This document shows positions 22,476 through 37,936 of a stretch of 64,000 nucleotides of DNA, in pieces. The notes beneath the pieces were generated by a model. The model had not been told where the DNA came from and did not search any database. It was given only the letters and a program-made list of their open reading frames with translations. Origin of the DNA: Sporolactobacillus sp. THM19-2 (lineage in GTDB: Bacteria; Bacillota; Bacilli; Bacillales; Sporolactobacillaceae); contig NZ_SEMC01000001.1 in the NCBI RefSeq assembly GCF_004153195.1, positions 62,001 through 126,000 on the forward strand, written 5' to 3'. Position 1 is the stretch's first letter; each line of letters starts with the position of its first letter. The position numbers were made by a program, and so were the translations under genes.

Positions 22476-24299
22476 TTGAAGGTAATTAAACGGATTCCAA
22501 TGTTCATGTTAATTGCACTACTGGCTTTTTCAATGACTGCGTGCGGTAATTCTTCATCCAACAATAATAATAACGCAAAATTCACAACAGTCTATTATTA
22601 CCACCCGATTTCTCCCGGTGCACCTAAAAACCCATATAACGCAACGGGAAATTCATTCACGAGTTTTAATAAGATGCAGCTTGCCTGGGCCTCAGGATTG
22701 GCAACGGATCTGAATAAATTCTACCCAGGGCTGGCAAAGTCATGGAGTGAGAGCCCAGATGGAACCAAAGCTACCATTGAATTGCAGCCTAAGGCAAAAT
22801 GGTCGAATGGCAAACCGGTAACTGCGGATGACGTGAAGACTTCAATGGCGATTGCATTTACTCAGGGAACGGCGCAGTCCTTCTCACTTGGAAGCGTGAA
22901 AGTTTTATCTGAGAAGAAGCTGGAGCTCTCCCAAGTACCTGGCGGAAAATATAAAATGTTCATGCACGATGCGCTGCAGCAAACAGTGGTGCCTGATTTC
23001 CAGTATCGCAAATTACTGCCGAAGGATATCTGGACCATCATTGAAAAGTCCCAATATACAGGTGACGATAAAGCCAAAACGGCTACAGCTAAAACGGCAC
23101 AGGAACAGTTGACGAAATTAGGGAAGAGTATCACCAAGTTCGCACCAAAAACTGACATTTCAGCCGGACCATTCGTACTAAAACGTCTGAATCCCGGTGA
23201 AGCTTTCTTAGTAAAAAATAAATATTTCTATGCGGCAGATAAGGTCAAAGTTGGCAGTGTTTCCCTTCGCAACTATACCGGCAACCAGCAGATTTGGAAC
23301 TATTTGATTGCCGGACAGCTGGATGCGACCCCATTTACTTCAATGCCGAAAAACATCTTGAATAGTGCGTTGAAGAAAAAAGGTAATCAGAAGGTTGTCA
23401 CACCAACTTATGTCGCTGCAGCCCTGGCGTTTGACCAGAAATTCTATCCATATGGTAATGTCAACGTACGAAAAGCACTGGCTTATGTCATTGACCGGGA
23501 GGCTGTCCAGAAAGTTGCTGAACCGGTTGTCGGTACGCCGTCAAAATATACAGACGGTATCACAGACAGCGCAGCGTCGGACTGGGTCGATGAATCCACA
23601 CGGTCGAAGATGGACACTTATGATGTGAATCTGGACAAAGCTACTTCACTTTTGGAAAAAGAGGGTTTTAAAAAGCAAAATGGCAAATGGATCCTGCCAA
23701 ATGGCAAGCCCTGGTCAATGGATATTCACGTGGTCAACGGCTTCAGTGACTGGATTCAGGGCGGCAAAGTCATCGCCAGTCAGCTGACCAAATTCGGTAT
23801 TGATGCGAAGCCGACGATTGTAAGCAGCTTTGCACAGTATCAGTCGGACATGGCAGCTCAAAAATACGCTGTTGGCTTCTGGCTCGATTCTCTGAGTGCC
23901 AATATGTATACGGCATTTGCCAGAATTTATGGTACGCCTGATGGTTATAACGTGGTAAACAGTAAGCTTGCTTATTACAGTCAAAAAGATAAGACGAAGG
24001 GCAACTGGATCGGGCTTCCGGAAAAACTCAAGATCTCAACAGGTGAAACGATCAATCCCGGTGAGTTGACTTATGAGATGAACCAGATGAAGCCTGAGAA
24101 TCAGAAGGATCATGTACAGAAGCTCGCACTGGTAACGAATGAATATGTCCCAATGATTGAAATCTGGGATTACACGCATGTTCAGTTTGTTAACACGGAT
24201 CGATTCACCAACTTCCCTGTCAAAGATGAAGGGCTAATGAACAATATGCCAGGCGTTTGGATGTCGTTAGGTTATGTCACACCTAAAACTTCAAAATAA
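22476..24299 (+). CDS. Oligopeptide/muropeptide ABC transporter substrate-binding lipoprotein
   Basis: 607 residues from TTG 22476, nine bases after AAGGAGG; an open frame to 22383 has no ribosome site. The N-terminus is a lipoprotein signal: K-R, a hydrophobic run, then M-T-A-C-G-N with the lipidated Cys near residue 26 and an Asn-rich linker. The rest is an SBP_bac_5 (OppA/DppA) fold: W-S-E-S-P-D-G-T-K-A-T, W-S-N-G-K-P-V-T-A-D-D-V and V-R-K-A-L-A-Y-V-I-D-R are standard. It captures ligand outside the membrane for the permeases that follow. Context points to cell-wall muropeptides rather than plain peptides. Confidence 0.88.
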   Translation: MKVIKRIPMFMLIALLAFSMTACGNSSSNNNNNAKFTTVYYYHPISPGAPKNPYNATGNSFTSFNKMQLAWASGLATDLNKFYPGLAKSWSESPDGTKATIELQPKAKWSNGKPVTADDVKTSMAIAFTQGTAQSFSLGSVKVLSEKKLELSQVPGGKYKMFMHDALQQTVVPDFQYRKLLPKDIWTIIEKSQYTGDDKAKTATAKTAQEQLTKLGKSITKFAPKTDISAGPFVLKRLNPGEAFLVKNKYFYAADKVKVGSVSLRNYTGNQQIWNYLIAGQLDATPFTSMPKNILNSALKKKGNQKVVTPTYVAAALAFDQKFYPYGNVNVRKALAYVIDREAVQKVAEPVVGTPSKYTDGITDSAASDWVDESTRSKMDTYDVNLDKATSLLEKEGFKKQNGKWILPNGKPWSMDIHVVNGFSDWIQGGKVIASQLTKFGIDAKPTIVSSFAQYQSDMAAQKYAVGFWLDSLSANMYTAFARIYGTPDGYNVVNSKLAYYSQKDKTKGNWIGLPEKLKISTGETINPGELTYEMNQMKPENQKDHVQKLALVTNEYVPMIEIWDYTHVQFVNTDRFTNFPVKDEGLMNNMPGVWMSLGYVTPKTSK

Positions 24300-24363
24300 A
24301 AAAAGAGGGTCACAACCGGATGAATGTTATAAGGAGTAGAAACACAGGGGGGTGCAGCATTTT

Positions 24364-25356
24364 ATGAAAGATTTTTTAATCCGCCTTGTATGGCGGATTT
24401 TTTCTGGCATTCTAATGGTTCTTGCCGTTGCCTCGCTGACATTTTTCCTCGTCCGTTTGATGCCGGGTAACCCGGTGGATGCGCAGTATAATCAGCTGAT
24501 TATGCAAGGAATGACGCCCGTTCAGGCAGAGAATCAGGTGAAAGTCATGTACGGTTTTATTCCTGATGAACCGCTGGATGAACAATTTATTCATTATATT
24601 TGGAACCTGTTGCATTTTGATTTTGGGCAATCCATCTCGTATGAAGGGATCGGTGTAGCCCACATTATCGCGAACGCGGCGCCCTATACATTGATTTTAG
24701 TGTTTATCGGTTTGATCACAAGTTTTCTGATTGGTGTGCTCGCCGGGGTCATTGCGGCAATAAAGCGTTCATCACCACTCGGGACTTCCTTAACTGTTTC
24801 TGGATCTTTACTGCATGGTGTTCCACAGTTTGTCATGGGGCTACTGCTGGCTTTCTTATTTACAACCTTGTGGCCAATTCTGCCATTTGGCGCGCCTTAT
24901 GATTCATCAATTGATCCTGGCTTCAATGGGCCGTTTATTTCATCGCTAGTCAGTCATGCGGTCCTTCCTGTGGTCACATATGCCCTGTCAAGTTACGGAG
25001 GCTGGTTATTAACGATGAAATCCAGTGTTATCACGGTACTCGGGGATGATTTTATCCTGGCATCCGAAATCAGAGGACTGAAATCTTCAACAAGAATTGG
25101 CTATATCGCTCACAACGCGATCCTGCCGCTGTTCACTTTATTTACGCTGTCTATCGGCTTTATGTTTGGAGGCTCTATCTTTATTGAGAACATCTTTGAT
25201 TATCCAGGCCTGGGTAATTTGCTGCTCAAAGCAATTGATGTTCGAGATTATCCATTAATGAGCGGGGCTTTTCTGCTAATCACGATAGCTGTTATTATTT
25301 CAAACATTGTCACAGATTTTCTTTATTCCATTGTTGATCCCCGGATTAGGAGGTAG
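24364..25356 (+). CDS. ABC transporter permease (OppB/DppB type)
   Basis: 330 residues from ATG 24364; a GTG at 24352 lies within the ribosome site AGGGGGGTG. Six hydrophobic helices. The N-terminal F-F-L-V-R-L-M-P-G-N-P-V-D is the hallmark of OppB-type permeases, and the EAA loop appears as A-S-E-I-R-G-L-K-S-S near residue 235. It forms the membrane channel with the next gene product. Confidence 0.9.
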   Translation: MKDFLIRLVWRIFSGILMVLAVASLTFFLVRLMPGNPVDAQYNQLIMQGMTPVQAENQVKVMYGFIPDEPLDEQFIHYIWNLLHFDFGQSISYEGIGVAHIIANAAPYTLILVFIGLITSFLIGVLAGVIAAIKRSSPLGTSLTVSGSLLHGVPQFVMGLLLAFLFTTLWPILPFGAPYDSSIDPGFNGPFISSLVSHAVLPVVTYALSSYGGWLLTMKSSVITVLGDDFILASEIRGLKSSTRIGYIAHNAILPLFTLFTLSIGFMFGGSIFIENIFDYPGLGNLLLKAIDVRDYPLMSGAFLLITIAVIISNIVTDFLYSIVDPRIRR

Positions 25357-25362
25357 GTTAGT

Positions 25363-26280
25363 ATGACCACAACGGGAACAATTAAATCTCTCAAACCATT
25401 TAAACCCAAACCTTACAAGGGGCAATCTTTCTGGAAGGCCGCATGGAAGTCAATTACACGGAAGACGAGCCGTATGGTGGGCTTTATCATTATTGTCATG
25501 TTTACTTTGATGGCGATTGTTGGCCCTTACTTGTACCCGCCTCATCTTCCCAGTGATCCGAATGCAATTTATGCGCCAATAAGCTGGAAGTATCCGCTCG
25601 GCACGGACTTTGAAGGAACAAGTAATCTTGCATTAATCGTAACAGGTGCTCGTTATGTGCTGCTCGCTGCTGCGTTTGGCGCGCTGTTTACAGTCCTTTT
25701 CGGCACTGTGCTGGGATTGATCTCCGGTTATTTTATTGGCTGGTCTGATTCCATCATCATGCGTATTACTGATTTCTTTTTGACAGTTCCCACTTTTCCG
25801 CTTCTCGTCGTTTTGTCTACAGTTTGGAATTTCGGCCATCCTCTGGCAATGGGGTTCATTCTTGGTATTACCGGCTGGGGTGGTATGTGCCGGGCGGTCC
25901 GGTCACAGACTTTGTCCCTGCGCGAAAGGGGCTTTGTTGAAGCAGCAAGGGGTCTTGGGCTGTCTTCCTTCTATATTCTGTTCAGGGAGATTCTCCCGAA
26001 TGTCAGCTCTTATATTGGTATGAACCTTCTGACATCGATTACGGGTTGTATATACGCGGAAGTCGGCTTGTTTTTCCTTGGTGTTGTACCCTTCCACGTG
26101 AACAACTGGGGCGTTATGCTGAATATGGCCGTATTCTCAGCTGGAGCCATGTCCAGTCCCGGCGCTCTGCCGTATTTACTTTCTCCTCTTCTTGCCCTGT
26201 TGCTTCTGACACTTGGCATTGTCCTATTCCTGGACGCAGTTGATGAAATGTTCAATCCACGGTTAAGAGAGGATGCATGA
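25363..26280 (+). CDS. ABC transporter permease (OppC/DppC type)
   Basis: 305 residues, start ATG 25363 after AGGAGG six bp beyond the previous stop. N-terminal OppC-like helix, then L-G-T-D-F-E-G-T-S-N near residue 80 and the EAA loop E-A-A-R-G-L-G-L-S near residue 193; it ends D-E-M-F-N-P-R-L-R, a common OppC C-terminus. It pairs with the preceding permease. The stop codon overlaps the ribosome site of the ATPase gene. Confidence 0.9.
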   Translation: MTTTGTIKSLKPFKPKPYKGQSFWKAAWKSITRKTSRMVGFIIIVMFTLMAIVGPYLYPPHLPSDPNAIYAPISWKYPLGTDFEGTSNLALIVTGARYVLLAAAFGALFTVLFGTVLGLISGYFIGWSDSIIMRITDFFLTVPTFPLLVVLSTVWNFGHPLAMGFILGITGWGGMCRAVRSQTLSLRERGFVEAARGLGLSSFYILFREILPNVSSYIGMNLLTSITGCIYAEVGLFFLGVVPFHVNNWGVMLNMAVFSAGAMSSPGALPYLLSPLLALLLLTLGIVLFLDAVDEMFNPRLREDA

Positions 26281-26281
26281 C

Positions 26282-27313
26282 ATGGCAAAAAGCTCAATAG
26301 CGAATGTCAAAAATGTTAATGAAGAAAACGGGGCGGATATTGCAATCAAAGCTAGACAGATTAACGTGGTTTATTCGACGCCAACTGGTGATATTCCGGC
26401 CGTCCGCAATGTTGATCTGGACCTGCCGAAAGGAAGTATTACGGGGATAATCGGTGAATCCGGATCGGGCAAGTCAACCCTGATTATGGCCATCATGAAT
26501 GCTGTGACAAAGCCAGGGAAAATTCTGAGCGGTTCGGTTATTTTGAACGGCCGGGTAGATATGCTGAAACTGAGTACTGAACAACAGAGAAATATCAGGG
26601 GTAATGAAATCGGCTTTGTTTTCCAGGCTGCGCAAAATTCATTAAATCCGCTTCGACGAGTCGGTCAGCAAATTCTTGATCTTGGGCGATCCCATGATGT
26701 GAAGGATCTGAGAGGCCTGATTAAATATGCAAAAGAGCTATTAACACGTCTGGGTTTGGACGCAGACCGGGTACTTGCTTCCTATCAGCACGAACTTTCG
26801 GGCGGCATGAGGCAACGGGTAGGCATTATGTTTGCCCTTGTCCTTAAGGCTGATATCGTGTTTCTGGATGAGTCAACGACGGCGCTGGACATGTTGTCGC
26901 AAGCCTCTGTTCTTGAAATTATTCGAGAGCTTCAGAAAGAGAAACATTTGACGATAGCCCTGGTGTCTCATGATATAGGCGTCGTCGCGGATCTGTCGGA
27001 AAGAATTGAGATTTTTTACGCAGGTGAAATTGTTGAGGAAGGTGAGACACGAAAGATTCTTGCCGATCCGCAGCATCCCTATACCCGTGGGCTGATCCGC
27101 GCGATTCCGAGAATTTCCGGTAATATTGACGCTGCTGAGCCTTTAAAAGGCTCACCGCCGGACTTTAAGACCTACCAACAACCCGGATGTCTTTTCTATG
27201 ACCGATGCCCGATTCGAACAGACTCATGTCTGAAGGAAAGACCAAAGCTCGTCAATATAGAAGATTCTCATAAAGTCGCTTGTTTTAGGGTGGGTGTTCA
27301 TGATAGAGATTAA
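26282..27313 (+). CDS. ABC transporter ATP-binding protein (OppD/DppD type)
   Basis: 343 residues from ATG 26282; ATG 26273 abuts the GAGAGG site. Walker A G-E-S-G-S-G-K-S-T (~residue 60), signature L-S-G-G-M-R-Q-R (~170), Walker B A-D-I-V-F-L-D-E-S (~190). The C-terminal Cys cluster (G-C-L-F-Y-D-R-C-P-I...C) is typical of Opp/Dpp ATPases. Its end overlaps the next gene. Confidence 0.92.
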   Translation: MAKSSIANVKNVNEENGADIAIKARQINVVYSTPTGDIPAVRNVDLDLPKGSITGIIGESGSGKSTLIMAIMNAVTKPGKILSGSVILNGRVDMLKLSTEQQRNIRGNEIGFVFQAAQNSLNPLRRVGQQILDLGRSHDVKDLRGLIKYAKELLTRLGLDADRVLASYQHELSGGMRQRVGIMFALVLKADIVFLDESTTALDMLSQASVLEIIRELQKEKHLTIALVSHDIGVVADLSERIEIFYAGEIVEEGETRKILADPQHPYTRGLIRAIPRISGNIDAAEPLKGSPPDFKTYQQPGCLFYDRCPIRTDSCLKERPKLVNIEDSHKVACFRVGVHDRD

Positions 27314-28310
27314 GAATTTGGAAAAAGTTTTCCATATCAAAGCAAAATTTTCAGATAAAAAGACCGTACACGCTGTTCGAAAAGTGAATCTGATTATCCC
27401 TGATGGTGGAGCAATTTCTTTGATCGGAGAATCCGGCTGTGGGAAAACGACTATTGGGCGCATGCTCTGCGGGCTGGAAAAGCCAACAGCAGGATCAATT
27501 ATAATCAATGGTCAGGATATCTCAAAATTAAGACGCGGAGCACGGTCAAAGCTTCTACAGAAAATCCAGTTGATTCAACAGGATCCTTATCAGGCGCTGA
27601 ATCCAACCCACACGATTTATCAAATGATGTCGGCTACGTTAAAAAAGGTGGCTAAAGAAAAGAAAAAGGGGCGGGACTGGGTCCGCTGGAGAATGGATGA
27701 ATTGCTGAATCTTGTCGGTCTGGATCCGTCCACCATCCTGTTTAAATACCCACATATGCTTTCAGGTGGTCAGCGGCAACGTGTGATTATTGCAAGAGCG
27801 CTGACCGTTGAGCCTGAAATCCTGGTTGCCGATGAAATCGTGTCAATGATTGATGTGTCGCTGCGTCTTGGTATTTTGAAACTTTTGCGCAATCTCAGAG
27901 AACAATTTAATATTTCCATTCTATTTATTACGCATGATGTAGCATCAGCCCGTTACCTTGGGGAAAATACGAAGCTATACGTCGTTTACAAAGGTATGAT
28001 TATTGAAAGGGGCCACACTGAGCGCGTTATCCGGCAGCCGCGTCACCCGTATACCCAGGCACTCCTGAGTGCAATGCCAATTCTGAAAGGGATTGAGAGG
28101 GCCGGGAGTGACCGTTTCGTTCTGACTTCGCAATTCAGGCAAAGTGTTCAGGAGCCGGCCGGATGTCTTTTCGCCGATCGATGCCCGTTCAGTCAACCTG
28201 TCTGCCGGGATAAGCGTCCGGAGTTGACTGCTGAAGGCGAAGGGGCAAGCGCATGCTTCTTCCCGAAAGTTCGTAAGGTCGCGGCAGTTGCGGTCAATCA
28301 AGGTGTTTAA
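27300..28310 (+). CDS. ABC transporter ATP-binding protein (OppF/DppF type)
   Basis: 336 residues from ATG 27300, overlapping the previous gene by 14 bp; a GTG at 27294 is an alternative. Walker A G-E-S-G-C-G-K-T-T, signature L-S-G-G-Q-R-Q-R, Walker B I-L-V-A-D-E-I; note Ile where Walker B is often followed by P or S. C-terminal Cys cluster G-C-L-F-A-D-R-C-P-F. It completes a five-gene importer. Confidence 0.92.
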   Translation: MIEIKNLEKVFHIKAKFSDKKTVHAVRKVNLIIPDGGAISLIGESGCGKTTIGRMLCGLEKPTAGSIIINGQDISKLRRGARSKLLQKIQLIQQDPYQALNPTHTIYQMMSATLKKVAKEKKKGRDWVRWRMDELLNLVGLDPSTILFKYPHMLSGGQRQRVIIARALTVEPEILVADEIVSMIDVSLRLGILKLLRNLREQFNISILFITHDVASARYLGENTKLYVVYKGMIIERGHTERVIRQPRHPYTQALLSAMPILKGIERAGSDRFVLTSQFRQSVQEPAGCLFADRCPFSQPVCRDKRPELTAEGEGASACFFPKVRKVAAVAVNQGV

Positions 28311-28349
28311 AAAAATTGGCATGAGCTGAACGTAAGATAAGGTGATGAC

Positions 28350-29207
28350 ATGTTAAAAGGCGGTTTAGCCAGACTCAGACAATCCTATCCGGCATTAAAT
28401 CCATCTGAACAAAAGGCGGCAAAATTCACACTGGATCATCCTGAACAAATGCTTCAGATGACCGTTAGTGAGCTGGCAGAGGCAAGTGGATCCAGCCAGT
28501 CGGCAATTATTCGTCTATGCAAAACGCTCCGAATGAAAGGATATCAGGAGCTGAAGCTGTGCGTGGCCGGAGATCTGAAGGATTCTTCGTCGACTGGCGA
28601 TGAATATAAAGAGATCAACCCAAACAGTGATCTTCCTACGGTCGTTGCATCAGTCTCAAACAACACGATCTTTTCGATTAATGAAACCCTGAAAGTGCTC
28701 GATATTCAGAAGCTGCAGCAGGCCATAGATTTGATCGAAAGGGCACATCGAATCGACTTTTTCGGAACGGGGGCGTCACAGCTGGTTGCCTGCGACGCGC
28801 AGGTGAAGTTTATGCGTATCAATAAGGCTTGTACTGCCTACGCCGATAATCATTTGCAGCTGACGTCGGCGGTCACCTTAACGAGCGGTGATGTTGCCGT
28901 TGCTTTCTCCAACTCCGGAGAAACCTACCAGACGATCGAATGCATCAAAGCTGCTAAGCAGTCAGGCGCGAAAACGATCGGGATTACCCGATACGGGAAT
29001 AATACGCTTGGTCAACTTGTCGATTTTCAAATTGGGATTGTGTCGACGGAATCGGATGTCCGAAGCGCGGCGACCACTTCGCGAATCGTTCAACTTAATC
29101 TGGTTGATATTATCTATCTGGCGGTAGCGGGCTATCAATACGAATCGTCGCTGAAATATTTGAATCGGTCGCTGGATGCAATTAAAAATAGTTTTCGAGT
29201 GAAGTGA
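28350..29207 (+). CDS. RpiR-family regulator with SIS domain (MurR-like)
   Basis: 285 residues. N-terminal helix-turn-helix (residues 1-75; L-A-E-A-S-G-S-S-Q-S-A-I-I-R-L-C-K is the recognition region) and a C-terminal sugar-isomerase (SIS) domain (about 110-245; F-F-G-T-G-A-S and F-S-N-S-G-E-T). Proteins of this build next to murQ sense MurNAc-6-phosphate (MurR). Here it sits between the importer and the salvage genes, so it probably controls both; the palindrome at 22307-22350 is a candidate site. Activator or repressor cannot be decided from sequence. Confidence 0.85.
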   Translation: MLKGGLARLRQSYPALNPSEQKAAKFTLDHPEQMLQMTVSELAEASGSSQSAIIRLCKTLRMKGYQELKLCVAGDLKDSSSTGDEYKEINPNSDLPTVVASVSNNTIFSINETLKVLDIQKLQQAIDLIERAHRIDFFGTGASQLVACDAQVKFMRINKACTAYADNHLQLTSAVTLTSGDVAVAFSNSGETYQTIECIKAAKQSGAKTIGITRYGNNTLGQLVDFQIGIVSTESDVRSAATTSRIVQLNLVDIIYLAVAGYQYESSLKYLNRSLDAIKNSFRVK

Positions 29208-29220
29208 CAGGAGCATAATG

Positions 29221-30299: not shown

Positions 30300-30425
30300 A
30301 TGGCAGAACAGTATATCGTCTGGTTGATATCCGGGACGTCCGTGAATGGTATCGATACGGCCCTGACACGGATTGAAGATCCTCCTTCAATAAATGATAA
30401 GACGACTGGGCGGGAAGGAAAGTGA
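30300..30425 (+). pseudogene. anmK: N-terminal remnant of anhydro-N-acetylmuramic acid kinase
   Basis: A 41-codon frame starting M-A-E-Q-Y-I-V-W-L-I-S-G-T-S-V-N-G-I-D-T. This matches the AnmK N-terminal ATP-binding signature (x-G-L-M-S-G-T-S-L-D-G-I-D), but the Asp after S-G-T-S-x is Asn. Real AnmK has ~370-390 residues; here it stops after the first strand-loop-strand and runs straight into the ribosome site of the next gene. A deletion of over 1 kb is the simplest reading. It shows the cluster once included anhydro-MurNAc recycling. Confidence 0.75.
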
Positions 30426-30430
30426 GAGCA

Positions 30431-31387
30431 ATGAAGTATAGTCCCCTTTTACGGGATCGTGCGGAAGAGATGACGGCACTCTGGAATGCAGAGCTTGGCT
30501 GTGATTTCCCAATGCGGAACGAACTGCTGATCCAAAATAGTTTTGAAGATGATAACGTACTAGAGAGAGGCTCTTTTCTTGCCATTGATGAGGCCGGCGC
30601 AGTGGCCGGATTTATTATTACCAAAATCTATAGCGAATCTATTCCCGTCCCTCTTAATCGTTCAATTGGATGGATCCAAGTGTTATTGGTTGCGACAAGG
30701 AACCGGGAAAAAGGACTTGGTTCTGAATTATTGCGACGAGCGGAGAAAGAACTGGCAAAGGCAGGAGCAAAAAAGATTTTATTAGGGAAAGACGTCTGGC
30801 ACTATTTTCCTGGCATCCCTGCTCAATACCGGGAAGTCAAGCAATGGTTCATGAAAAGAGGATATCATTCTGACGGGATGGAGTTTGATTTGCTAACGGA
30901 ACTTTCTGTTTTGCAAGTGCCCGAAGTTGACGGCGCTACATTTCAAATTCTTGATCCGTCTGATAAGGACCAGCTTATCGAATTTCTTCATCGCAATTTT
31001 CCCGGCAGGTGGGAGTATGAAGGTATTAAATATTTTGAAAGAGGTGGAAATGGCCAGGAATTCGTTGTTTTGAAAAAGCAGCAACAGATGATTGGGTTCT
31101 GTAGAATTAATGGACCATTCTCTGCACAGATTGCACAAAATGTTTATTGGTCGCCTCTCTTCCCAGACGGTCTGGGCGGTATGGGGCCGCTTGGTATTGC
31201 CCGCGGTGAGCGTGGCAAAGGTTATGGTTTTGCAATCGTTTGTGCTGGTTTGGCGTATCTTGGCCAGCGCGGATTAAAGCATATCGTCATTGACTGGACA
31301 CAGCTTCTTGATTTTTATAAGAAGGCAGGCGCACATCCATGGAAAGCATACGCCACCTTTTCTAAAGAGCTTAATGACGATCGGTAA
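30431..31387 (+). CDS. Bidomain GNAT acetyltransferase
   Basis: 318 residues from ATG 30431 (GTG 30422 alternative; AAGGAAAG upstream). Two GNAT folds: the first has the acetyl-CoA loop R-N-R-E-K-G-L-G-S near residue 95, the second R-G-E-R-G-K-G-Y-G near residue 258. A Y-F-P-G-I-P motif sits between beta strands of domain one. B. subtilis also has a GNAT gene (ybbJ) at its mur locus. The substrate is unknown; an amino-sugar or peptide amine is plausible from context. A distant relative lies at 36968. Confidence 0.8.
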   Translation: MKYSPLLRDRAEEMTALWNAELGCDFPMRNELLIQNSFEDDNVLERGSFLAIDEAGAVAGFIITKIYSESIPVPLNRSIGWIQVLLVATRNREKGLGSELLRRAEKELAKAGAKKILLGKDVWHYFPGIPAQYREVKQWFMKRGYHSDGMEFDLLTELSVLQVPEVDGATFQILDPSDKDQLIEFLHRNFPGRWEYEGIKYFERGGNGQEFVVLKKQQQMIGFCRINGPFSAQIAQNVYWSPLFPDGLGGMGPLGIARGERGKGYGFAIVCAGLAYLGQRGLKHIVIDWTQLLDFYKKAGAHPWKAYATFSKELNDDR

Positions 31388-31426
31388 CATGCAGGTCAGA
31401 TCTCTTTGATCACGCCATGTCTAATG

Positions 31427-31457: not shown

Positions 31458-31496
31458 TCAGCTTTTAATAAGAGTTTCCAAAAGGATGGTTTTTTG

Positions 31497-32402
31497 ATGC
31501 TGGATAAACTGACGACAGAAGCGAGAAACACGAAGACAACAAACCTCGACAAGATGAGTATTTATGAGATATTACGCTGCATGAATCTTGAGGACCGGAG
31601 TGTGCCTCTTGCAGTGGAGAAAGAGCTGGGAAAAATTGAACAGGTTGTGAAACAAGCCATTCGATCCTTGCATTCGGGAGGACGGTTAATTTATATGGGC
31701 GCTGGGACAAGCGGACGACTCGGTGTTTTGGATGCTGTAGAATGTGTTCCGACCTTTAGTTCACCTCCTGGCCAGGTCATCGGGTTGATCGCCGGTGGGG
31801 ATCGCGCTTTGATTGAGGCTGTTGAAGGAGCGGAGGATGATGAACAGTTGGGCGAGTCAGACTTAATAACCAGCCAACTGACAGAAAAGGATTACGTCAT
31901 CGGTATCGCGGCCAGTGGCAGGACGCCCTACGTTATTGGCGGATTGCGCTATGCCCGCAAGATCGGTGTACCTACCGCCAGTATCAGCTGTAACTGTGAC
32001 GCCGAAATCAGCAAGTTTGCCGATGTAGCGATCGAAGTGGAGACCGGACCGGAAGTGCTGACCGGCTCAACGAGATTGAAAGCCGGAACGTCTCAAAAAA
32101 TGGTTCTGAATATGATTTCGACGGCTTCGATGATTGGTCAGGGGAAGATCTATAAAAATTTAATGGTCGATGTGCAGCCAACCAATGCGAAACTTGTTGA
32201 ACGTTCAAAACGCATCATTGCAGAGGCCACCGGTGCTGACCTCGCGACCGCGGAGAAGTATTACGCCGATTCACGGCAAAATGTTAAGGCAGCGATCGTT
32301 ATGCTTCTCCTTCACTGCCCGCTGAGCGAAGCGCTTGATCGCCTCAGATTGACAGATGGATTTATTCGGAAAGCATTGAATACAGAAAACCAGCAAAATT
32401 AA
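31497..32402 (+). CDS. murQ: N-acetylmuramic acid 6-phosphate etherase
   Basis: 301 residues from ATG 31497 (AAAAGGATGG eight bases upstream). Typical length. SIS-fold motifs: M-G-A-G-T-S-G-R-L-G-V-L-D-A-V-E-C near residue 65, I-G-I-A-A-S-G-R-T-P-Y near 135, and L-T-G-S-T-R-L-K-A-G-T-S-Q-K-M-V-L-N near 185, which is diagnostic for MurQ. It splits MurNAc-6-phosphate into GlcNAc-6-phosphate and D-lactate. The MurNAc-6P should come from the kinase just downstream, since no MurP PTS is present. Confidence 0.95.
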   Translation: MLDKLTTEARNTKTTNLDKMSIYEILRCMNLEDRSVPLAVEKELGKIEQVVKQAIRSLHSGGRLIYMGAGTSGRLGVLDAVECVPTFSSPPGQVIGLIAGGDRALIEAVEGAEDDEQLGESDLITSQLTEKDYVIGIAASGRTPYVIGGLRYARKIGVPTASISCNCDAEISKFADVAIEVETGPEVLTGSTRLKAGTSQKMVLNMISTASMIGQGKIYKNLMVDVQPTNAKLVERSKRIIAEATGADLATAEKYYADSRQNVKAAIVMLLLHCPLSEALDRLRLTDGFIRKALNTENQQN

Positions 32403-32433
32403 GCAAAGAATCAGCTGGAAGAAGGTGCAATTG

Positions 32434-33366
32434 TTGAAAAAGATTTATCTGGCGATTGACGGGGGCGGGACGAAAACAGATGCAGTCCTCTTTTCGAATA
32501 GCGGCAAGATTCTCTCCCGTGCAATCGGAGCGGGTACCAATCCAAATGGCATGGCTTTCGATCAGGTTACCGATCATTTTCGAAAGCTTTTTTTAATATT
32601 ATTCGACGGTCAAAGGGTGACTCGCCTTCAAGGCTGTTTCGCGGGATTGTCCGGAGCCGATCATCCTGTATTGACTCAGCGACTGACCAGAAGCATTCAG
32701 GCTGCCTGTCCGGCAGACATCGCTCATCTTCAGGTTGGAAATGACGCGATGAACGCGTTGTGGAGTGGGACGGACGGAAAACCGGGAATGGTTGTCATTG
32801 CAGGTACAGGGTCCATTGCCTATGGCTTACATGAAGATGGTCGGTCATTTCGTATTGGTGGGTGGGGGTTTCTGTTTGGTGATGAGGGAAGCGGATATGA
32901 TATCGGCCGTGAAACGATTCGTCAGGTACTGATGGAATATGATGGAAGGCGGCCTGCGACAGCATTAACCGGCCAGGTGAAAGATTACTTTCAGGTTACG
33001 GCTATTCCGGACATCATTCCGATCGTCTATCAGGCCAGGAAAGATAAGATAGCCGGTCTGGTTCCGCTTGTTGCTGAATCTGCAGAACTCGGTGATTCAT
33101 GTGCCCGAAAGATACTGGATAAGGCGGCAAATCAGCTCATCCAGCTGATTGGAAATGGATTGGAACATTTTGATACACCGCCTCAGGTCGTTCTGACCGG
33201 CGGTGTGTGGAAATGCATCCTGATCAGGCAAAGGGTTCTTCAGCAAATGAATCGTTCATTTGTGTTTCCTGCATGTCCGCCGGTCTGGGGATCAATGGCC
33301 AGGTGTCTAAACGAGTGGGAACAATCGAATGATCAGATTTCGGAACTTTTAAAGAAGCAATTGTAA
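32434..33366 (+). CDS. BadF/BadG-type sugar kinase, MurK-like
   Basis: 310 residues from TTG 32434, eight bases after AAGAAGG; the GTG at 32425 overlaps that site. ASKHA fold: phosphate-1 loop A-I-D-G-G-G-T-K-T-D, phosphate-2 loop I-A-G-T-G-S-I-A-Y-G near residue 115, then G-D-E-G-S-G-Y-D-I-G-R-E. This is the N-acetylglucosamine kinase family, which includes Clostridium MurK, active on both MurNAc and GlcNAc. Directly after murQ, the role is very likely MurNAc (and GlcNAc) 6-phosphorylation inside the cell. Confidence 0.85.
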   Translation: MKKIYLAIDGGGTKTDAVLFSNSGKILSRAIGAGTNPNGMAFDQVTDHFRKLFLILFDGQRVTRLQGCFAGLSGADHPVLTQRLTRSIQAACPADIAHLQVGNDAMNALWSGTDGKPGMVVIAGTGSIAYGLHEDGRSFRIGGWGFLFGDEGSGYDIGRETIRQVLMEYDGRRPATALTGQVKDYFQVTAIPDIIPIVYQARKDKIAGLVPLVAESAELGDSCARKILDKAANQLIQLIGNGLEHFDTPPQVVLTGGVWKCILIRQRVLQQMNRSFVFPACPPVWGSMARCLNEWEQSNDQISELLKKQL

Positions 33367-33411
33367 TGGATTTACAATCACATTATGAGATTTATGAAAT
33401 GAGGGAGGAAT

Positions 33412-34563
33412 ATGATTCATCCAGGGGTCGAAATACTTCTTCAGGAACAGCTTAACCTGTTGAAGGGGAGACGGATAGGTCTTCTGACCAATATGACAGG
33501 TCTGGATCATCGGATGCGGTCGACTATTGACATATTTTATGATCATCCTGATATACACCTTACCGCTTTATTCGGACCTGAGCATGGGATCAGAGGGGAT
33601 GGGCAGGAAGGCAAACAAGTTCAGAATTATACGGATCCGTCTACACAGCTTCCGGTTTTCAGTCTCTATGGAAAGAGCAGGAAACCAACCAGGGATATGT
33701 TGTCCGGCCTGGACACTATTGTCGTCGATATACAGGATATCGGCGTCAGATATTATACATTTATCTCAACATTGAGTTATGTCATGGAGGCCTGCATGGA
33801 TGAAGGGAAAGAAGTCGTTGTCCTGGACCGGCCGAATCCTGTTAATGGAGTTTACAGAGAAGGGAATATACCTGAAGCCTCTCTGCGTTCTTTTGTCGGA
33901 TTACATGCCATTCCGAACAGGCATGGATTAACGATTGGTGAACTCGCCTTAATCTATAAACATCTTTTCGGGATAAATTGTTCGCTGAGCGTTGTACCCA
34001 TGAAGGGATGGAACAGATCGATGTTTTTCAGAGATACCGGGATGTGCTGGGTTCAGCCTTCACCTAACTCAACCGGTCAAATCATGGCCGTGTTATACAC
34101 GGGTATGTGTCTGATCGAAGGTACTGAATTATCGGAAGGAAGAGGGACCACCCGTCCATTCGAAGTCGTCGGTGCCCCGTATATCGATGGAAAAAAGCTG
34201 GCCGGAGGATTTAATGAATTACATTTGCCGGGTGTTTTGGCCAGACCCACGAGTTTCGTTCCCTGTTACTCAAAATATAAGGGTCAATTGTGTTATGGTG
34301 TACAGATTCATGTTCTGGATCTCACTCAGGTTCAGTCTCTGAAAGTTGGCGTGTATCTGTTAGGCCTGATTGCAGATATGTATCCCGATCAGTTTATGTT
34401 CAGAGATGAGACAAATGATCGGTCCATGTTTCATTTACTTGCAGGGAACAGGAGATTAAAGCAAATGGTCAGAGAAAATAATTTTGGGGATTACTTCGAT
34501 CAATGTCAGGACGACTGCAGACAATTTACTGAAAAAGTTACTCCCTTTTTTCTCTACAAATGA
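33412..34563 (+). CDS. namZ: DUF1343 exo-beta-N-acetylmuramidase
   Basis: 383 residues, ATG 33412 after GGGAGG. DUF1343 signatures: G-L-L-T-N-M-T-G, F-G-P-E-H-G-I-R-G near residue 57 with the conserved Glu-His, D-I-Q-D-I-G-V-R-Y-Y-T-F near residue 107, D-R-P-N-P-V-N-G near 139, and E-G-R-G-T-T-R-P-F-E. The B. subtilis homologue YbbC (NamZ) is a secreted exo-muramidase removing MurNAc from non-reducing ends. This protein starts directly with the mature fold and has no signal peptide. Confidence 0.9.
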   Translation: MIHPGVEILLQEQLNLLKGRRIGLLTNMTGLDHRMRSTIDIFYDHPDIHLTALFGPEHGIRGDGQEGKQVQNYTDPSTQLPVFSLYGKSRKPTRDMLSGLDTIVVDIQDIGVRYYTFISTLSYVMEACMDEGKEVVVLDRPNPVNGVYREGNIPEASLRSFVGLHAIPNRHGLTIGELALIYKHLFGINCSLSVVPMKGWNRSMFFRDTGMCWVQPSPNSTGQIMAVLYTGMCLIEGTELSEGRGTTRPFEVVGAPYIDGKKLAGGFNELHLPGVLARPTSFVPCYSKYKGQLCYGVQIHVLDLTQVQSLKVGVYLLGLIADMYPDQFMFRDETNDRSMFHLLAGNRRLKQMVRENNFGDYFDQCQDDCRQFTEKVTPFFLYK

Positions 34564-34584
34564 GCGTTATCAGGAGGCGACAAG

Positions 34585-36165
34585 ATGACATTTCAGGATA
34601 TATCGAAGCAAATCGGCCAGCTGATGGTGTTTGGATTCCCAGGTCAGAAGATGACGGCAGAAATAAGAACACTGATCCATGAACACAGCTTGGGCAGCAT
34701 CATACTTTTCCCGCGTAATATTGAGGGCCCGGAACAGGTTCGTTCTTTGACTCTGGAACTGCAAACTGAAGCAAAAAGGGCAGGATTAACGCATCCTCTC
34801 CTGATCTGTACAGACCAGGAGAACGGAACAGTTAGAAGGCTGAAGAAGGGTTTTACTGTTTTTCCCGGTTCGATGTTAACAGGTGCGACCCATAATCCAG
34901 CTCTTGCAGCGGAAATCGGCAGACGAACCGCGGAGGAAATGAAAGAAGCTGGAGTCAACTGGGATCTGGCTCCGGTTGTCGATGTCAATAATAATCCACT
35001 GAATCCTGTTATTTCTACACGTTCATTCGGCGAGGACCCGGATGAAGTAGCTGAAATGGCAGAAAACTTTATGACAGGCATGCAGTCGGCAGGCGTCATC
35101 CCGACACTTAAACATTTTCCCGGACATGGGGATACGAGTGTTGACTCTCACCTCGATCTTCCTGTCATCGACCATGATATGAAGCGGCTAAACCGGGTGG
35201 AATTAATCCCTTTTAAAAAATGTATTCAGGCCGGTGCTGATGTTATTATGTCTGCCCACGTTTATTTTCCGGCGATTGAAAAACAACCGGGCGTCCCCGC
35301 TACGCTTTCCAGAAGTGTTCTTACCGGTTTATTAAGAAATCAATTACATTTCCAGGGCGTAATCACAACGGACTGCATGGAAATGAATGCAATCAGTGAA
35401 GGCGTCGGTACGGCTAATGGTGCGGTTAAAGCGCTTCAGGCCGGTGCGGATATGATTATGATCTCCCACACGTACAGTAAACAGCAGGAAGCCTTAAATA
35501 AAGTGCTTGCCGGATTGAAAAACGGCCTGATTGATGAAACACAGCTTGTTCAGTCAATCAACCGAATTCATGTGCTGAAGCAAAAATATCTGAGCTGGGA
35601 AGATGCCTTGAAACGTGAAACCGTCCAAGTAAAAACAGGAACCGATGAGAATAAGGCATTTGCGGACTATGTATACAGTGAAGGGGTATCAATCATCAGA
35701 AATTCAAAAAAGATCATTCCATTTTCTGCGGATGGAAAGACTTTGTTCATTTATGATACGCACATTTCCTATACAAACGTTGAAGACAAAAAAGATCATT
35801 TATTATTTCTTGAAGGTGTCATTCGATCGGTAGCGCCATCAGCTGATATTTTTGATGATTCTGATCCGAAACTGTATGAAGTTTTTGATGAGATGGCAAA
35901 TGGAGAACGTTCGTATTCTGGTATCGCCGTTCTGACTTCATCGATCGCCGGGAATGATCAGCGTGTGGAAAAATTAATGGACTTAGAAAAAGCAGGGATA
36001 CCCATGGTTGTGATCGCCGGGAAAAGTCCATATGTTGTCCGTCACGTGCCGGACAACATACCTTGCATCTGTACGTACGAACTGACGGAACCCGCATTAA
36101 AAAAAGCGATAAAAGCCCTGTTTGGTATGGATGTGGCGAAAGGCATTCCACCTGTAACGCTCTGA
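34585..36165 (+). CDS. nagZ: Beta-N-acetylglucosaminidase, glycoside hydrolase family 3
   Basis: 526 residues, ATG 34585 after AGGAGGCGA. The catalytic nucleophile Asp263 lies in T-T-D-C-M-E-M, and the NagZ-specific loop K-H-F-P-G-H-G-D-T-S-V-D-S-H carries the Asp187/His189 dyad. A second C-terminal domain (~residue 350 onward) is present but shorter than in B. subtilis NagZ (642 residues, secreted). No signal peptide. It removes GlcNAc from the non-reducing end of muropeptide saccharides. NamZ and NagZ side by side mirror B. subtilis ybbC-ybbD. Confidence 0.92.
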   Translation: MTFQDISKQIGQLMVFGFPGQKMTAEIRTLIHEHSLGSIILFPRNIEGPEQVRSLTLELQTEAKRAGLTHPLLICTDQENGTVRRLKKGFTVFPGSMLTGATHNPALAAEIGRRTAEEMKEAGVNWDLAPVVDVNNNPLNPVISTRSFGEDPDEVAEMAENFMTGMQSAGVIPTLKHFPGHGDTSVDSHLDLPVIDHDMKRLNRVELIPFKKCIQAGADVIMSAHVYFPAIEKQPGVPATLSRSVLTGLLRNQLHFQGVITTDCMEMNAISEGVGTANGAVKALQAGADMIMISHTYSKQQEALNKVLAGLKNGLIDETQLVQSINRIHVLKQKYLSWEDALKRETVQVKTGTDENKAFADYVYSEGVSIIRNSKKIIPFSADGKTLFIYDTHISYTNVEDKKDHLLFLEGVIRSVAPSADIFDDSDPKLYEVFDEMANGERSYSGIAVLTSSIAGNDQRVEKLMDLEKAGIPMVVIAGKSPYVVRHVPDNIPCICTYELTEPALKKAIKALFGMDVAKGIPPVTL

Positions 36166-36196
36166 ACGAAAAAAAGAAATCCCGGAGGTTAATCAT

Positions 36197-36907
36197 ATGG
36201 AAAAAAATTTACTTATCGTAGGCGCTCACTGTGGTGATGGTGAATTGCAGGCAGGTGCGATAGCGAATAAATATGCAAAGGCAGGTTATCATGTCACTTT
36301 CCTTCATCTTACTGCTGGAGAAAAGGGCAATCCGCCGGGAATGAGTGTTGAAGAATATCGAAAACAAAAAATAGAAGAATCGGAGGCATGTGCCAAAGTA
36401 TTGGGTGCAGACAGCATGACGCTTGATTATCGTGATGCGGAACTGACATTCAGTGATGAAATCATTACACGTATTGCGAAATGTTTCAGAAAGCTGAAAC
36501 CGGCACTGGTCATCACCCACTGGGTGAACAGTATGCATCCTGATCATGCTCTATGCCCGAGACTGGTGAATCATGCCTGGCTGAAAGCAGCACTTCCCGG
36601 TTTTGATTTAGACGGACTGCCGCCTCATGGGATGAAAGGGTATTTACATAGTGAAAACTGGGAGGACATGGAAGGCTACGTTCCGGATATCTTCATTGAT
36701 GTATCAGACGAGTTCAATACCTATCTCGAAGCGTTGTCGAAGTACTGGTTCATTATGCACTCGAAAGATTTCAGATATTATGATTATTACAAAGCGCTTG
36801 GCACCATCAGAGGCTGCCGGATTAAAAAGCAATATGCACAAACACTGAAGTACCCGGCCGGAGGGAATGTCCGGGTAGGGCAGGAAATACCGGGATTGTC
36901 ATTGTAA
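36197..36907 (+). CDS. PIG-L/LmbE-family deacetylase with altered motif
   Basis: 236 residues, ATG 36197 after CCGGAGG. Zinc ligands are recognisable: His11 and Asp14 in A-H-C-G-D-G-E, and His117 in H-P-D-H. The usual A-H-P-D-D has its first Asp, the general base in MshB-type enzymes, replaced by Gly13. Related amino-sugar deacetylases (MshB, BshB) act on GlcNAc conjugates, so a GlcNAc or MurNAc product of the cluster is a reasonable substrate guess, but the altered base makes activity uncertain. Confidence 0.75.
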   Translation: MEKNLLIVGAHCGDGELQAGAIANKYAKAGYHVTFLHLTAGEKGNPPGMSVEEYRKQKIEESEACAKVLGADSMTLDYRDAELTFSDEIITRIAKCFRKLKPALVITHWVNSMHPDHALCPRLVNHAWLKAALPGFDLDGLPPHGMKGYLHSENWEDMEGYVPDIFIDVSDEFNTYLEALSKYWFIMHSKDFRYYDYYKALGTIRGCRIKKQYAQTLKYPAGGNVRVGQEIPGLSL

Positions 36908-36967
36908 GACATCTGATTGTGAATTTTAATCATATCAAAATTGAAAAACGATGCTGGAGTGATAAAC

Positions 36968-37936
36968 ATGGTAACTTATCGAACGTACCTCCCAGGGGAC
37001 GAGAAAAAAATTACCGCATTATGGAACGACACACTGCTTTATGATCCGGTCACTCCGGACCGTTTCCGGAGACTGGTTTTACTGGATGCCAATTTTGATC
37101 CGGAAGGCCTGCAGCTGGCATTTGATAACGGACGCCTTGCGGGCGTGCTTTACGGACTCAGACGGCGCCTGCCGATGAGCGGAACGGATCTTGAGGAAGG
37201 TTCAGGCTGGATTCCTTTTTTCTTCGTTGATCCGGAGTATGAAAGGCAGGGCACAGGCGAAGAACTGATGGACAAAGCCTTTGAATTTTTTAAAAAACAC
37301 CAGGTGGTTCATGTTTTCTTTTCCTCATATGCACCAAATTATATTGTTCCCGGTATTGATGAGACGCATTATGCCAAAGGTTATGCTTTTTTGAAAAAAA
37401 CGGGTTTTCAGACCCTCTATTCACCTGTAGCGATGGATGCCAGCCTGGTTGAATTCACGTTGTCTGATGAAATACGTTTATTGATCCGGGAAAGAAATAA
37501 AGAAGGTTATGTCTTCAGAAAAGCACAGGATCGGGATCTGGCTCAGCTCATTACTTTTGCCGACACGGTATTTAATCCGGACTGGGGACGCGCGATCAGA
37601 GAAGGTGTCCCTCAGGGACTGCCTCTGGATCGAATCTGGGTTGCATATTATCAGGATCAGCTCATTGGTTTTTGCCTGCATGGCGGTTATGAAGGCATTC
37701 CGGAACGATTTGGCCCATTCGGTGTGGATCCCGCTGAACAGGGAAAGAAACTGGGTAAAATCCTGCTTCATCTATGCCTGTACGGGATGAGGGCAGAAGG
37801 TTGTCATAGTGCCTGGTTTCTCTGGACTGGAGAGAAAAGTCCCGCAGGCTATCTTTATAGAAAAACAGGTTTTAAAGTCACGAGAAAATTTCATGTGATG
37901 AAAAAGATACTGGATGATAAGCCCTTTCATGAATAA
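36968..37936 (+). CDS. Second bidomain GNAT acetyltransferase
   Basis: 322 residues from ATG 36968 (GGAGTGAT eight bases upstream); the frame back to TTG 36941 is unsupported. Two GNAT folds: E-Y-E-R-Q-G-T-G-E-E-L near residue 93 and P-A-E-Q-G-K-K-L-G-K-I near residue 258. The segment I-V-P-G-I-D in domain one corresponds to F-P-G-I-P in the GNAT at 30431, so the two are distant paralogues at either end of the salvage genes. Last gene before a strong terminator. Confidence 0.78.
   Translation: MVTYRTYLPGDEKKITALWNDTLLYDPVTPDRFRRLVLLDANFDPEGLQLAFDNGRLAGVLYGLRRRLPMSGTDLEEGSGWIPFFFVDPEYERQGTGEELMDKAFEFFKKHQVVHVFFSSYAPNYIVPGIDETHYAKGYAFLKKTGFQTLYSPVAMDASLVEFTLSDEIRLLIRERNKEGYVFRKAQDRDLAQLITFADTVFNPDWGRAIREGVPQGLPLDRIWVAYYQDQLIGFCLHGGYEGIPERFGPFGVDPAEQGKKLGKILLHLCLYGMRAEGCHSAWFLWTGEKSPAGYLYRKTGFKVTRKFHVMKKILDDKPFHE

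Follow-up and report, generated by a model that had tools for sequence, protein, structure and literature searches.

We identified a block of 14 genes, all on the forward strand at 22482-37936 of the 64-kb window (the whole stretch of DNA that was analysed), that probably forms a self-contained operon for the cytoplasmic salvage of peptidoglycan sugars fed by ABC import. An Opp-type importer is encoded alongside a MurR-family regulator, MurQ, a MurK-like kinase and three cell-wall hydrolases that appear to remain inside the cell.

Gene content, candidate regulatory sites and proposed route

Every gene named in the preliminary description was recovered on the single strand and at the coordinates given there, with intergenic gaps of -20 to +136 bp. 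The features of the block and its upstream region are as follows.

22262..22290, forward strand: candidate promoter, TAGACA-17-TAAAAT (10 of 12 consensus matches)
22303..22353, forward strand: candidate MurR operator, TGAAATAATATTTTA with a downstream inverted half-match (conservation)
22482..24299, forward strand: SBP_bac_5 lipoprotein, substrate-binding protein of the importer (Pfam, 158 bits)
24352..25356, forward strand: OppB-type permease, named by similarity (open reading frame, 85-90% in four congeners)
25363..26280, forward strand: OppC-type permease, named by similarity (open reading frame, congeners)
26273..27313, forward strand: OppD-type ATPase, named by similarity (open reading frame, congeners)
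27294..28310, forward strand: OppF-type ATPase, named by similarity (open reading frame, congeners)
28350..29207, forward strand: MurR/RpiR-family regulator (HTH_6 and SIS)
29218..30285, forward strand: AmiE-like serine hydrolase of beta-lactamase fold, no signal peptide by hydrophobicity (Pfam)
30422..31387, forward strand: GNAT1, GlmA-like double GNAT (PDB 5kf1 set match, E 4.8e-53)
31494..32402, forward strand: MurQ, MurNAc-6-phosphate etherase (TIGR00274, 373 bits)
32425..33366, forward strand: MurK-like BadF-family kinase (best PDB match 8zo3, E 2.1e-33)
33412..34563, forward strand: NamZ, exo-N-acetylmuramidase, no signal peptide by hydrophobicity (NamZ_N 280 bits, NamZ_C 164 bits)
34585..36165, forward strand: NagZ, GH3 N-acetylglucosaminidase, no signal peptide by hydrophobicity (Pfam GH3)
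36197..36907, forward strand: PIG-L-fold protein with AHCGD replacing AHPDD (Pfam, alignments)
36941..37936, forward strand: GNAT2, second double GNAT (Pfam)

The Pfam scan covered 10 of the 14 proteins, all of which passed their cut-offs; the two permeases and two ATPases lay outside it. The families represented were SBP_bac_5, RpiR HTH with SIS, the beta-lactamase fold, GNAT (two proteins), GKRP/SIS, BcrAD_BadFG, NamZ_N with NamZ_C, GH3 and PIG-L. MurQ exceeded the TIGR00274 cut-off of 302 bits, and the MurR-like protein passed no NCBIfam equivalog. As the top PDB match of the BcrAD_BadFG protein is named a MurNAc/GlcNAc kinase, it is assigned as a putative MurNAc/GlcNAc kinase of the BadF family. 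Chance clustering of the genes was ruled out because 12 of the 14, all but the PIG-L and GNAT2 genes, recur as a group in four congeners, their proteins being 53-90% identical.

Upstream of the block, the candidate promoter is conserved by eye in an alignment of the upstream regions of five congeners; the promoter scan overall returned no excess of sites (32 versus 27.3 in shuffles, sd 5.6). The two operator-type matches in the window are within chance (23 of 100 shuffles), and the case for the candidate operator thus rests on conservation. The palindrome TGAAATWAWATTTYA lies upstream of both Opp- and CUT-type clusters, and the consensus operator was present in 12 of 15 clusters, a descriptive count for which the consensus was written after some of the counted clusters had been viewed and the first gene of each cluster was picked by hand. 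A MurR repressor at TGAAATWAWATTTYA would switch the operon on.

In the proposed route, an Opp-fold importer from the oligosaccharide-binding branch would take up small wall fragments unphosphorylated, namely the disaccharides GlcNAc-MurNAc and MurNAc-GlcNAc, either bare or carrying a stem peptide. The AmiE-like amidase would strip the peptide inside the cell, the GlmA-like GNAT1 would re-acetylate GlcN residues so that NagZ could act, and NagZ and NamZ would alternately release GlcNAc and MurNAc from the non-reducing end. MurK would then phosphorylate both sugars at the expense of ATP and MurQ would yield GlcNAc-6-P, leaving NagA and NagB, whose genes are present elsewhere in the genome, to finish the route. 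From the preliminary description we retain the cytoplasmic placement of the hydrolases, the substitution of ABC import for MurP and the succession of MurK and MurQ, but not its hints of a novel acetylation and of PIG-L deacetylation. Its proposed cargo of muropeptides or GlcNAc-MurNAc is widened by NamZ to MurNAc-GlcNAc or longer chains, which had not been considered.

Import and the location of the hydrolases

No murP gene was found in the block or in the 3.0-Mb genome, where a murP PTS gene elsewhere had been named as evidence against the proposal. The genome contains eight PTS_EIIC matches, each closer to other sugars than to MurNAc. The best genome score with the MurP NCBIfam model was 174 bits (cut-off 516); calling MurP by this model alone was dropped, as just 1 of 14 control genomes reached the cut-off. 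A profile built from three MurPs adjoining murQ gave no genome match at 1e-60, and the same profile reached 575-590 bits in seven same-genus genomes. In addition, the genome holds one murQ copy above the cut-off, one NamZ, which is of the cytoplasmic type, and no match to AnmK of Gram-negative anhydromuropeptide recycling; the last is encoded in the operon of genomes G003 and G012 and is split by a stop in G005.

Signal peptides were judged from N-terminal hydrophobicity alone, a simple measure rather than SignalP. Maximum Kyte-Doolittle values at the N-termini of the AmiE-like hydrolase, NamZ and NagZ were 1.07, 0.85 and 1.08, which is not hydrophobic. By comparison, the lipoprotein reached 2.65, and the secreted NamZ homologues among relatives, which are 33-62 residues longer at the N-terminus, gave 2.35-3.07. 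The earlier observation that these three hydrolases start without signal peptides is borne out by this measure, and a cytoplasmic location is supported for them. Set against the MurP-PTS type of salvage known from E. coli and B. subtilis, the genome has MurQ, but neither a MurP nor the secreted NagZ, AmiE and NamZ of the B. subtilis form were found, with secretion again called from N-terminal hydrophobicity.

NamZ relatives were retrieved with an alignment-based scan, a single-sequence scan having found none, and the survey comprised 50 mutually related NamZ clusters, each holding two or more partners of the pathway. NamZ had no signal peptide in 23 of these, with a CUT importer in 13, an Opp importer in six, no importer seen in four and a co-directional MurP in none, such that 19 of the 23 have an ABC importer. 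The remaining 27 clusters, with a signal peptide on NamZ, included three with MurP, four with CUT and 20 with no importer seen; NamZ was secreted in all three co-directional-murP clusters. MurK accompanied the Opp importer in 6/6 clusters, CUT in 8/17 and MurP in 0/3. The survey of relatives that had been suggested earlier thus places NamZ without a signal peptide with ABC importers and never with a co-directional murP. The contrast between cytoplasmic NamZ with an ABC importer, often with a kinase, and murP with secreted NamZ may aid pathway calling, on the basis of 50 related clusters of which just three have a co-directional murP. As a separate observation, the four CUT-importer clusters with secreted NamZ run contrary to the pattern.

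These counts also bear on whether free MurNAc and GlcNAc enter by another route after cleavage outside the cell by unrelated hydrolases, with the cytoplasmic hydrolases turning over internal precursors. A NagE-like PTS gene upstream of the block (17236-19284) would give GlcNAc its own entry, and relatives do have secreted homologues. However, with no MurP found in the genome, its one NamZ being cytoplasmic, and the 23 cytoplasmic NamZ clusters showing 19 ABC importers and no co-directional murP, we consider this explanation very improbable.

The cargo of the importer was approached through its binding protein and permease. When the SBP profile was compared with the PDB, the best 14 rows scored 149-107 bits and the remainder at most 80; a chitin-oligosaccharide-binding protein headed these 14, which also included a mannoside binder. 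The single SBP sequence gave 63 and 62 bits versus 54 for OppAIV, a small margin over peptide binders, and its AlphaFold model (pLDDT 46) was too poor for a fold search. The earlier concern that the protein might bind ordinary peptides is set aside, as its profile appears closest to oligosaccharide binders. The top three OppC relatives outside the genome itself, from 398 phylum genomes, lie no more than 20 kb from NamZ; those of G443 and G286 run divergently to the NamZ genes, the NamZ operon of G286 has its own CUT importer, and the Opp genes of G478 lie 7 kb downstream. None of the next three relatives is close to NamZ, and among the last five, four adjoin GH130 or homologous loci, which indicates that the importer family is broad. 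In the OppC tree, 11 cluster rows separate from five paralogues of the window's own genome; the outgroup is narrow, and the rows were chosen by similarity to the window.

Could the importer instead serve chito- or manno-oligosaccharides (or peptides) in general, with the enzymes handling GlcNAc oligosaccharides and MurNAc salvage secondary? The chitin-oligosaccharide and mannoside binders among the SBP relatives and the GH130 neighbors of some OppC relatives would fit this, as would the acceptance of GlcNAc by MurK-type kinases that the name of 8zo3 implies. A system for chitin, however, would have little use for MurQ, NamZ or an amidase of the AmiE type. In addition, the block is found where congeners carry murP, and its top three OppC relatives lie within 20 kb of NamZ. 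We therefore regard general oligosaccharide import as unlikely and favor uptake of wall fragments for MurNAc salvage.

Acetyltransferases and the PIG-L protein

GNAT1 matched the PDB 5kf1 set over its full length (184 bits), with a second match to the C-terminal part of 4zm6. We take 5kf1 to be GlmA of C. acetobutylicum. GlmA, a glucosaminide N-acetyltransferase, has been proposed to take part in cell-wall recovery, and GNAT1 is a putative enzyme of this type. Because of this match, re-acetylation is not new to such a pathway, in which the acetylation step had earlier been described as without precedent.

The PIG-L protein retains the AH..D and H.DH motifs, whose His/Asp/His are presumably the metal-binding residues, and Foldseek gave a TM of 0.79 to 5cgz and 2ixd. 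The second Asp of AHPDD, which we take to be the catalytic base of PIG-L deacetylases, is replaced by Gly or Ala in the block protein, and the same holds for all 21 of the 22 relatives in which the position was readable. Since the whole subfamily has Gly/Ala for the usual Asp, the protein is probably no ordinary deacetylase, and the deacetylation step hinted at in earlier work is doubtful. The deacetylases BshB1 and BC1534 and the hydratase GalB (5cgz) share with it the fold, the His/Asp of AH..D and a later His. The Asp that serves as the base in BshB1/BC1534-type deacetylases is the residue replaced in the block protein, and in the alignment GalB is also without it. A literature search for GalB with PIG-L returned no match.

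GNAT2 was in view at 19 of the 22 other loci carrying this PIG-L type. Both genes are missing from the block in four congeners, and they are therefore considered accessory rather than core. Speculatively, they could form a two-step salvage module in which PIG-L opens or removes a non-acetyl N-substituent of an imported muramic sugar (for example, spore-cortex muramic-delta-lactam) and GNAT2 acetylates the freed amine, giving MurNAc for MurK and MurQ. We hold this to be a long shot; a module of this kind would be undescribed so far. SwsB, a protein of another fold that has lost its catalytic Asp and is engaged in muramic-lactam chemistry, offers a precedent for a PIG-L without the base (PMC12444981). 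A Spirochaetales MAG (L130) with a PIG-L of the block type and no GNAT2 in view speaks against the lactam reading.

History of the locus and relation to known systems

In five congeners, the same chromosomal locus contains murR-murQ-murP-mupG, and in G005 the block adjoins a leftover murP-mupG, an intermediate arrangement. Among 14 same-genus genomes, the block was found in five, murP in seven and both in one, with three having neither system. This exclusion is not significant alone (approximately 0.13 by hand calculation), so the argument for exchange is drawn from the shared locus. The block appears to have taken the place of PTS import and a 6-phospho-muramidase at this site, with ABC import, NamZ and a kinase in their stead. 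A less probable alternative is that the block descends from an older cluster of ABC type in the family without ever having displaced a PTS operon, in which case the shared flanks would mark a hotspot. Family members do have related CUT-importer clusters, and the block MurR shares 65-70% identity with the MurR of four such clusters, versus 25-29% with the MurR of the genus's PTS operon. MurQ of the block, however, groups with the MurQ of the genus PTS operon and of one family CUT cluster (12 rows, SH-aLRT 98), and the persistence of murP-mupG next to the block in G005 likewise favors exchange in place.

Reith and colleagues reportedly described cytoplasmic cell-wall recovery with MurK and GlmA in C. 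acetobutylicum in 2011. In the excerpted text of a published account, muropeptides are cleaved inside this Gram-positive cell (PMC4974736), which the block resembles in its predicted intracellular cleavage, putative MurNAc/GlcNAc kinase and predicted GlmA-type re-acetylation. Beyond this system, the block adds NamZ, an AmiE-like amidase, an identified Opp-type importer and the PIG-L/GNAT2 pair.

For B. subtilis, we take ybbC to be namZ. Its operon murQ-murR-murP-amiE-nagZ-ybbC, as given in sections of PMC5061867, likewise joins homologous MurQ, a MurR-family regulator, AmiE, NagZ and NamZ; AmiE and NagZ are extracellular there and the MurP PTS takes up MurNAc, whereas in the block MurP was not found, signal peptides are missing by hydrophobicity, and a kinase and ABC importer are present instead. 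The S. aureus MurP-MupG route has its counterpart in the murP-mupG of congeners at the block locus, and MupG splits phosphorylated MurNAc-GlcNAc according to parts of PMC6262408, whereas NamZ of the block would split unphosphorylated fragments. In Agrobacterium, YejBEF-YepA is likewise a binding-protein ABC importer that feeds muropeptides to cytoplasmic NagZ and amidase; it differs in being Gram-negative, in carrying anhydro- and other muropeptides and in supplying AmpD/NagZ (PMC9790009, in extracts). ABC uptake of wall fragments has also been published for Gram-positive recovery, as DppBCDF-YkfD, in a review whose available passages place NagZ and NamZ outside the cell and draw no link between an Opp importer and MurNAc sugar salvage (PMC13204101).

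The PIG-L protein represents an unexplored subfamily linked to cell-wall sugar salvage. The block provides a testable Gram-positive case in which PTS import of MurNAc would have been exchanged at one locus for ABC import of larger fragments, with both import forms and an intermediate inside a single genus. Such import would deny the fragments to competitors and make secreted hydrolases unnecessary.

Operon content and location of the hydrolases

Fourteen genes, all on the plus strand with intergenic gaps of -20 to +136 bp, were found at 22482-37936, and the preliminary description was correct in its coordinates and gene list. OppB, OppC, OppD and OppF were named via similarity, outside the domain scan; MurQ scored above its curated cut-off (373 versus 302 bits) and NagZ above that of the N-acetylhexosaminidase model (229 versus 207).

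Genes of the operon in order (22482-37936, plus strand)
1, SBP_bac_5 lipoprotein (SBP)
2, OppB
3, OppC
4, OppD
5, OppF
6, MurR/RpiR regulator
7, AmiE-like serine hydrolase
8, GNAT1, double GNAT (30422-31387)
9, MurQ
10, BadF-family kinase
11, NamZ
12, NagZ (GH3)
13, PIG-L protein
14, GNAT2, second double GNAT (36941-37936)

Export was judged with a hydrophobicity measure rather than a trained predictor, and among the proteins measured the SBP alone has a hydrophobic N-terminus (2.65; AmiE-like hydrolase 1.07, NamZ 0.85, NagZ 1.08). In relatives NamZ is of two sorts, one starting as in the window and one with 33-62 additional N-terminal residues including a hydrophobic stretch; three relatives (genomes G015, G032 and G077) hold both. 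We surveyed 113 NamZ neighbourhoods, of which 33 came from relatives and 80 were the top-ranked of at least 588 named records; a full NamZ was present in 112 (L078 was left out). The count took in the 50, window excluded, that had at least two of MurQ, MurK, NagZ, AmiE and AnmK within 10.5 kb on the same strand, and left out the remaining 62. NamZ lacks a signal peptide in 23 of the 50, where the transporter genes encode CUT-type sugar permeases in 13, Opp-type in six, none in view in four and a co-directional MurNAc permease (MurP) in none, the divergent murP of L050 (genome G005), at the edge of the stretch examined, being missed by the same-strand count. In the 27 clusters whose NamZ carries a signal peptide, MurP was seen in three, CUT in four and none in 20. 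Fisher tests gave 0.013 (ABC versus MurP) and 2e-6 (ABC seen or not), on rows that are related to each other.

NagZ, where judgeable, matches NamZ in signal-peptide state in both groups, as AmiE mostly does; the exceptions are signal-less AmiE proteins in five secreted clusters (L065, L066, L088, L089, L093). MurK is found in every one of the six Opp clusters, in eight of the 17 with CUT importers and in none of the three with MurP. This comparison with relatives supports the core of the earlier interpretation, an ABC-fed salvage of MurNAc in the cytoplasm. Two loci, L065 and L066, combine outside and inside elements, a secreted AmiE/NagZ/NamZ trio being followed by a signal-less AmiE, a CUT importer, MurK and MurQ. 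Another, L096, has MurK, MurQ, NamZ and AnmK on a contig that binning assigned, possibly wrongly, to a Bathyarchaeota MAG.

Published work states that muropeptides are cleaved inside by C. acetobutylicum, unlike B. subtilis (PMC4974736), and enter Agrobacterium by ABC import (PMC9790009); the pathways of B. subtilis and S. aureus are set out in PMC5061867 and PMC6262408. A review states that ABC transporters such as DppBCDF-YkfD underlie Gram-positive recovery and that NagZ may be located inside or outside (PMC13204101). Passages of PMC10465942, PMC4858229 and PMC13041923 added nothing on the block's importer. Neither an Opp-type importer joined to a cytoplasmic NamZ nor an exchange at the murP locus is described among the matches listed, a weak absence given that these are titles and abstract openings and that most subscription literature lies outside their scope.

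The importer and its upstream region

The binding proteins of five close congeners and of L062, six in all, were built into a profile and compared with the PDB, where the best 14 rows (149-107 bits) are headed by the chitin-oligosaccharide-binding protein 1zty; 4pfu, titled a mannoside sugar-binding protein, is among them. Several others of these rows carry peptide-binder titles, and we take them to be Vibrio chitooligosaccharide and Thermotoga sugar binders. Below the top 14, AgaA and OppAIV reach at most 80 bits and MppA 62; the window SBP alone gives 63 and 62 bits versus 54 for OppAIV, a small margin.

An OppC search at 1e-45 over 398 genomes sampled across the phylum found 11 places outside this genome. 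The three best (G443, G478 and G286; 231, 231 and 208 bits) have NamZ plus MurQ, NagZ or MurK no more than 20 kb away. Their Opp genes are divergent from NamZ in G443 and G286, and in G478 follow it on its own strand, 7 kb downstream. No NamZ lies near places four to six (G419 twice, G267) or the last five; among these five, L215, L217 and L219 carry a Pfam-confirmed GH130, and L216 has ORFs similar to theirs. In a Chloroflexota MAG (L122), co-directional Opp genes, NagZ, NamZ, AmiE, AnmK, MurK and MurQ form one cluster. The importer is thus probably an oligosaccharide type, and its closest kin accompany NamZ, although its family is broad. The G286 locus (L211) holds two importer classes, a NamZ-MurQ-MurR-MurK operon with its own CUT importer standing divergent from the Opp importer.

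A promoter-like site and the palindrome TGAAATAATATTTTA lie about 180-220 bp 5' of the binding-protein gene; overall the promoter scan stayed at chance (32 sites versus 27.3 expected). Of 15 clusters, 12 carry the consensus TGAAATWAWATTTYA, drawn up after some of the counted sites were seen, with at most one mismatch in the 350 bp preceding their first gene; these are the window cluster, those of four Opp-type congeners and seven of CUT type. At that threshold no match was seen in L062 (Opp-type, 275 bp upstream searched), L075 or L056. Even with two mismatches allowed, shuffles of the upstream regions matched 0 to 0.4 times, and whole loci 1-14 times. Right at the beginning of the OppB gene (24378-24399), a GC-rich hairpin precedes a T run, possibly a read-through terminator that would raise binding-protein output, although such sites are not above chance here.

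MurP and the shared locus

Eight PTS_EIIC matches, seven full-size proteins and one 171-aa fragment, were found in the genome, which is 100% complete at 3.0 Mb in 70 contigs. Nearest models for the seven are glucose, GlcNAc, beta-glucoside (two, one also sucrose-like), mannitol and fructose-type (two); the MurP model, whose cut-off is 516 bits, reaches at best 174. A profile from three MurPs adjoining murQ found 7 of 24 searched genomes at 575-590 bits, every one a congener, with the next best at 320 bits and no match at 1e-60 in this genome. Neighbouring nagA and nagB lie on a different contig. No anmK was found in this genome or in G002; it lies within the operon in G003 and G012 and is broken by a stop in G005. 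Elsewhere in the window, the 171-aa fragment (16829-17344) overlaps the start of a NagE-like PTS ORF (17236-19284) and looks like a truncated duplicate, mannose-family PTS genes (43780-46025) adjoin a LevR-like regulator (40243-43122) by ORF reading only, and a BsrC small RNA family match (64.7 bits) lies at 46736-46822 on the minus strand.

Five of seven murP-bearing congeners (L180, L181, L182, L184, L186) share the order LOG - murR-murQ-murP-mupG - SpoVR - TG - DUF58 - MoxR, MupG being Pfam-confirmed in L180 and L185 and assigned elsewhere by similarity; L183 has no LOG or SpoVR neighbours in view. The block occupies related positions: LOG - block - SpoVR in G003, pflB-pflA - block - GH31 - SpoVR in G002, and block followed by LOG-pflA-pflB in G012, where the contig ends on the other side. 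G005 (L050/L185) has LOG - block - murP-mupG - SpoVR, with murP-mupG divergent beside the block and PTS-type murR and murQ not in view. The window has DUF58-TG-SpoVR to the left of the block and HAD-DeoR-LevR to the right, keeping the congeners' order apart from additional genes on the left, and neither LOG nor pfl genes were seen. Across 14 genomes of the genus, five have the block, seven MurP, one both and three neither.

In the tree, the block's MurQ groups with the genus PTS-operon MurQ and one family CUT cluster (12 rows, SH-aLRT 98), and its MurR is 65-70% identical to those of four family CUT-type clusters versus 25-29% for PTS-type MurR. From locus order, MurQ grouping and MurR identity, we infer an in-place exchange in which an ABC-type cluster would have mixed with the resident murQ lineage.

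Acetylation and the PIG-L protein

Across its whole length GNAT1 aligns with the 5kf1 set (E 4.8e-53); 5kf1 is presumably C. acetobutylicum GlmA. In 4zm6, named an N-acetyl-beta-D-glucosaminidase, the C-terminal part matches GNAT1 and the N-terminal part NagZ, and their joining in one solved protein links the two steps. The acetylation step, earlier suggested to be undescribed, is thus already known in kind.

The PIG-L protein has AHCGD in place of the deacetylase AHPDD/AHADD. At the position of the lost Asp, Gly or Ala stands in every relative that could be read, 21 of 22 rows, L197 being the one with an unreadable start. Foldseek on the window protein's model (pLDDT 78) placed the GalB hydratase and the BC1534 deacetylase nearest and about equal, in the sequence profile BC1534 led with 77 bits and GalB came fifth with 56, and GalB likewise lacks that Asp in the alignment. 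In SwsB, another deacetylase fold, PMC12444981 describes loss of the base with muramic-lactam cyclase activity, a parallel that may serve purely as an analogy.

The PIG-L and GNAT2 genes are missing from the blocks of four congeners (G002, G003, G005, G012). GNAT2 is in view at 19 of 22 loci with PIG-L relatives; at the 11 fetched via PIG-L alone (10 further genomes out of 398), it is in view in 10, at most 50 bp away or overlapping in nine, and NamZ is present in seven. Four genomes of 2.2-2.5 Mb (L192-L195) have the two genes adjacent (3 bp gap) and no salvage cluster in view. PIG-L and GNAT2 are likely paired in function, and it is this enzymatic pair, rather than the acetylation part, that is possibly new.
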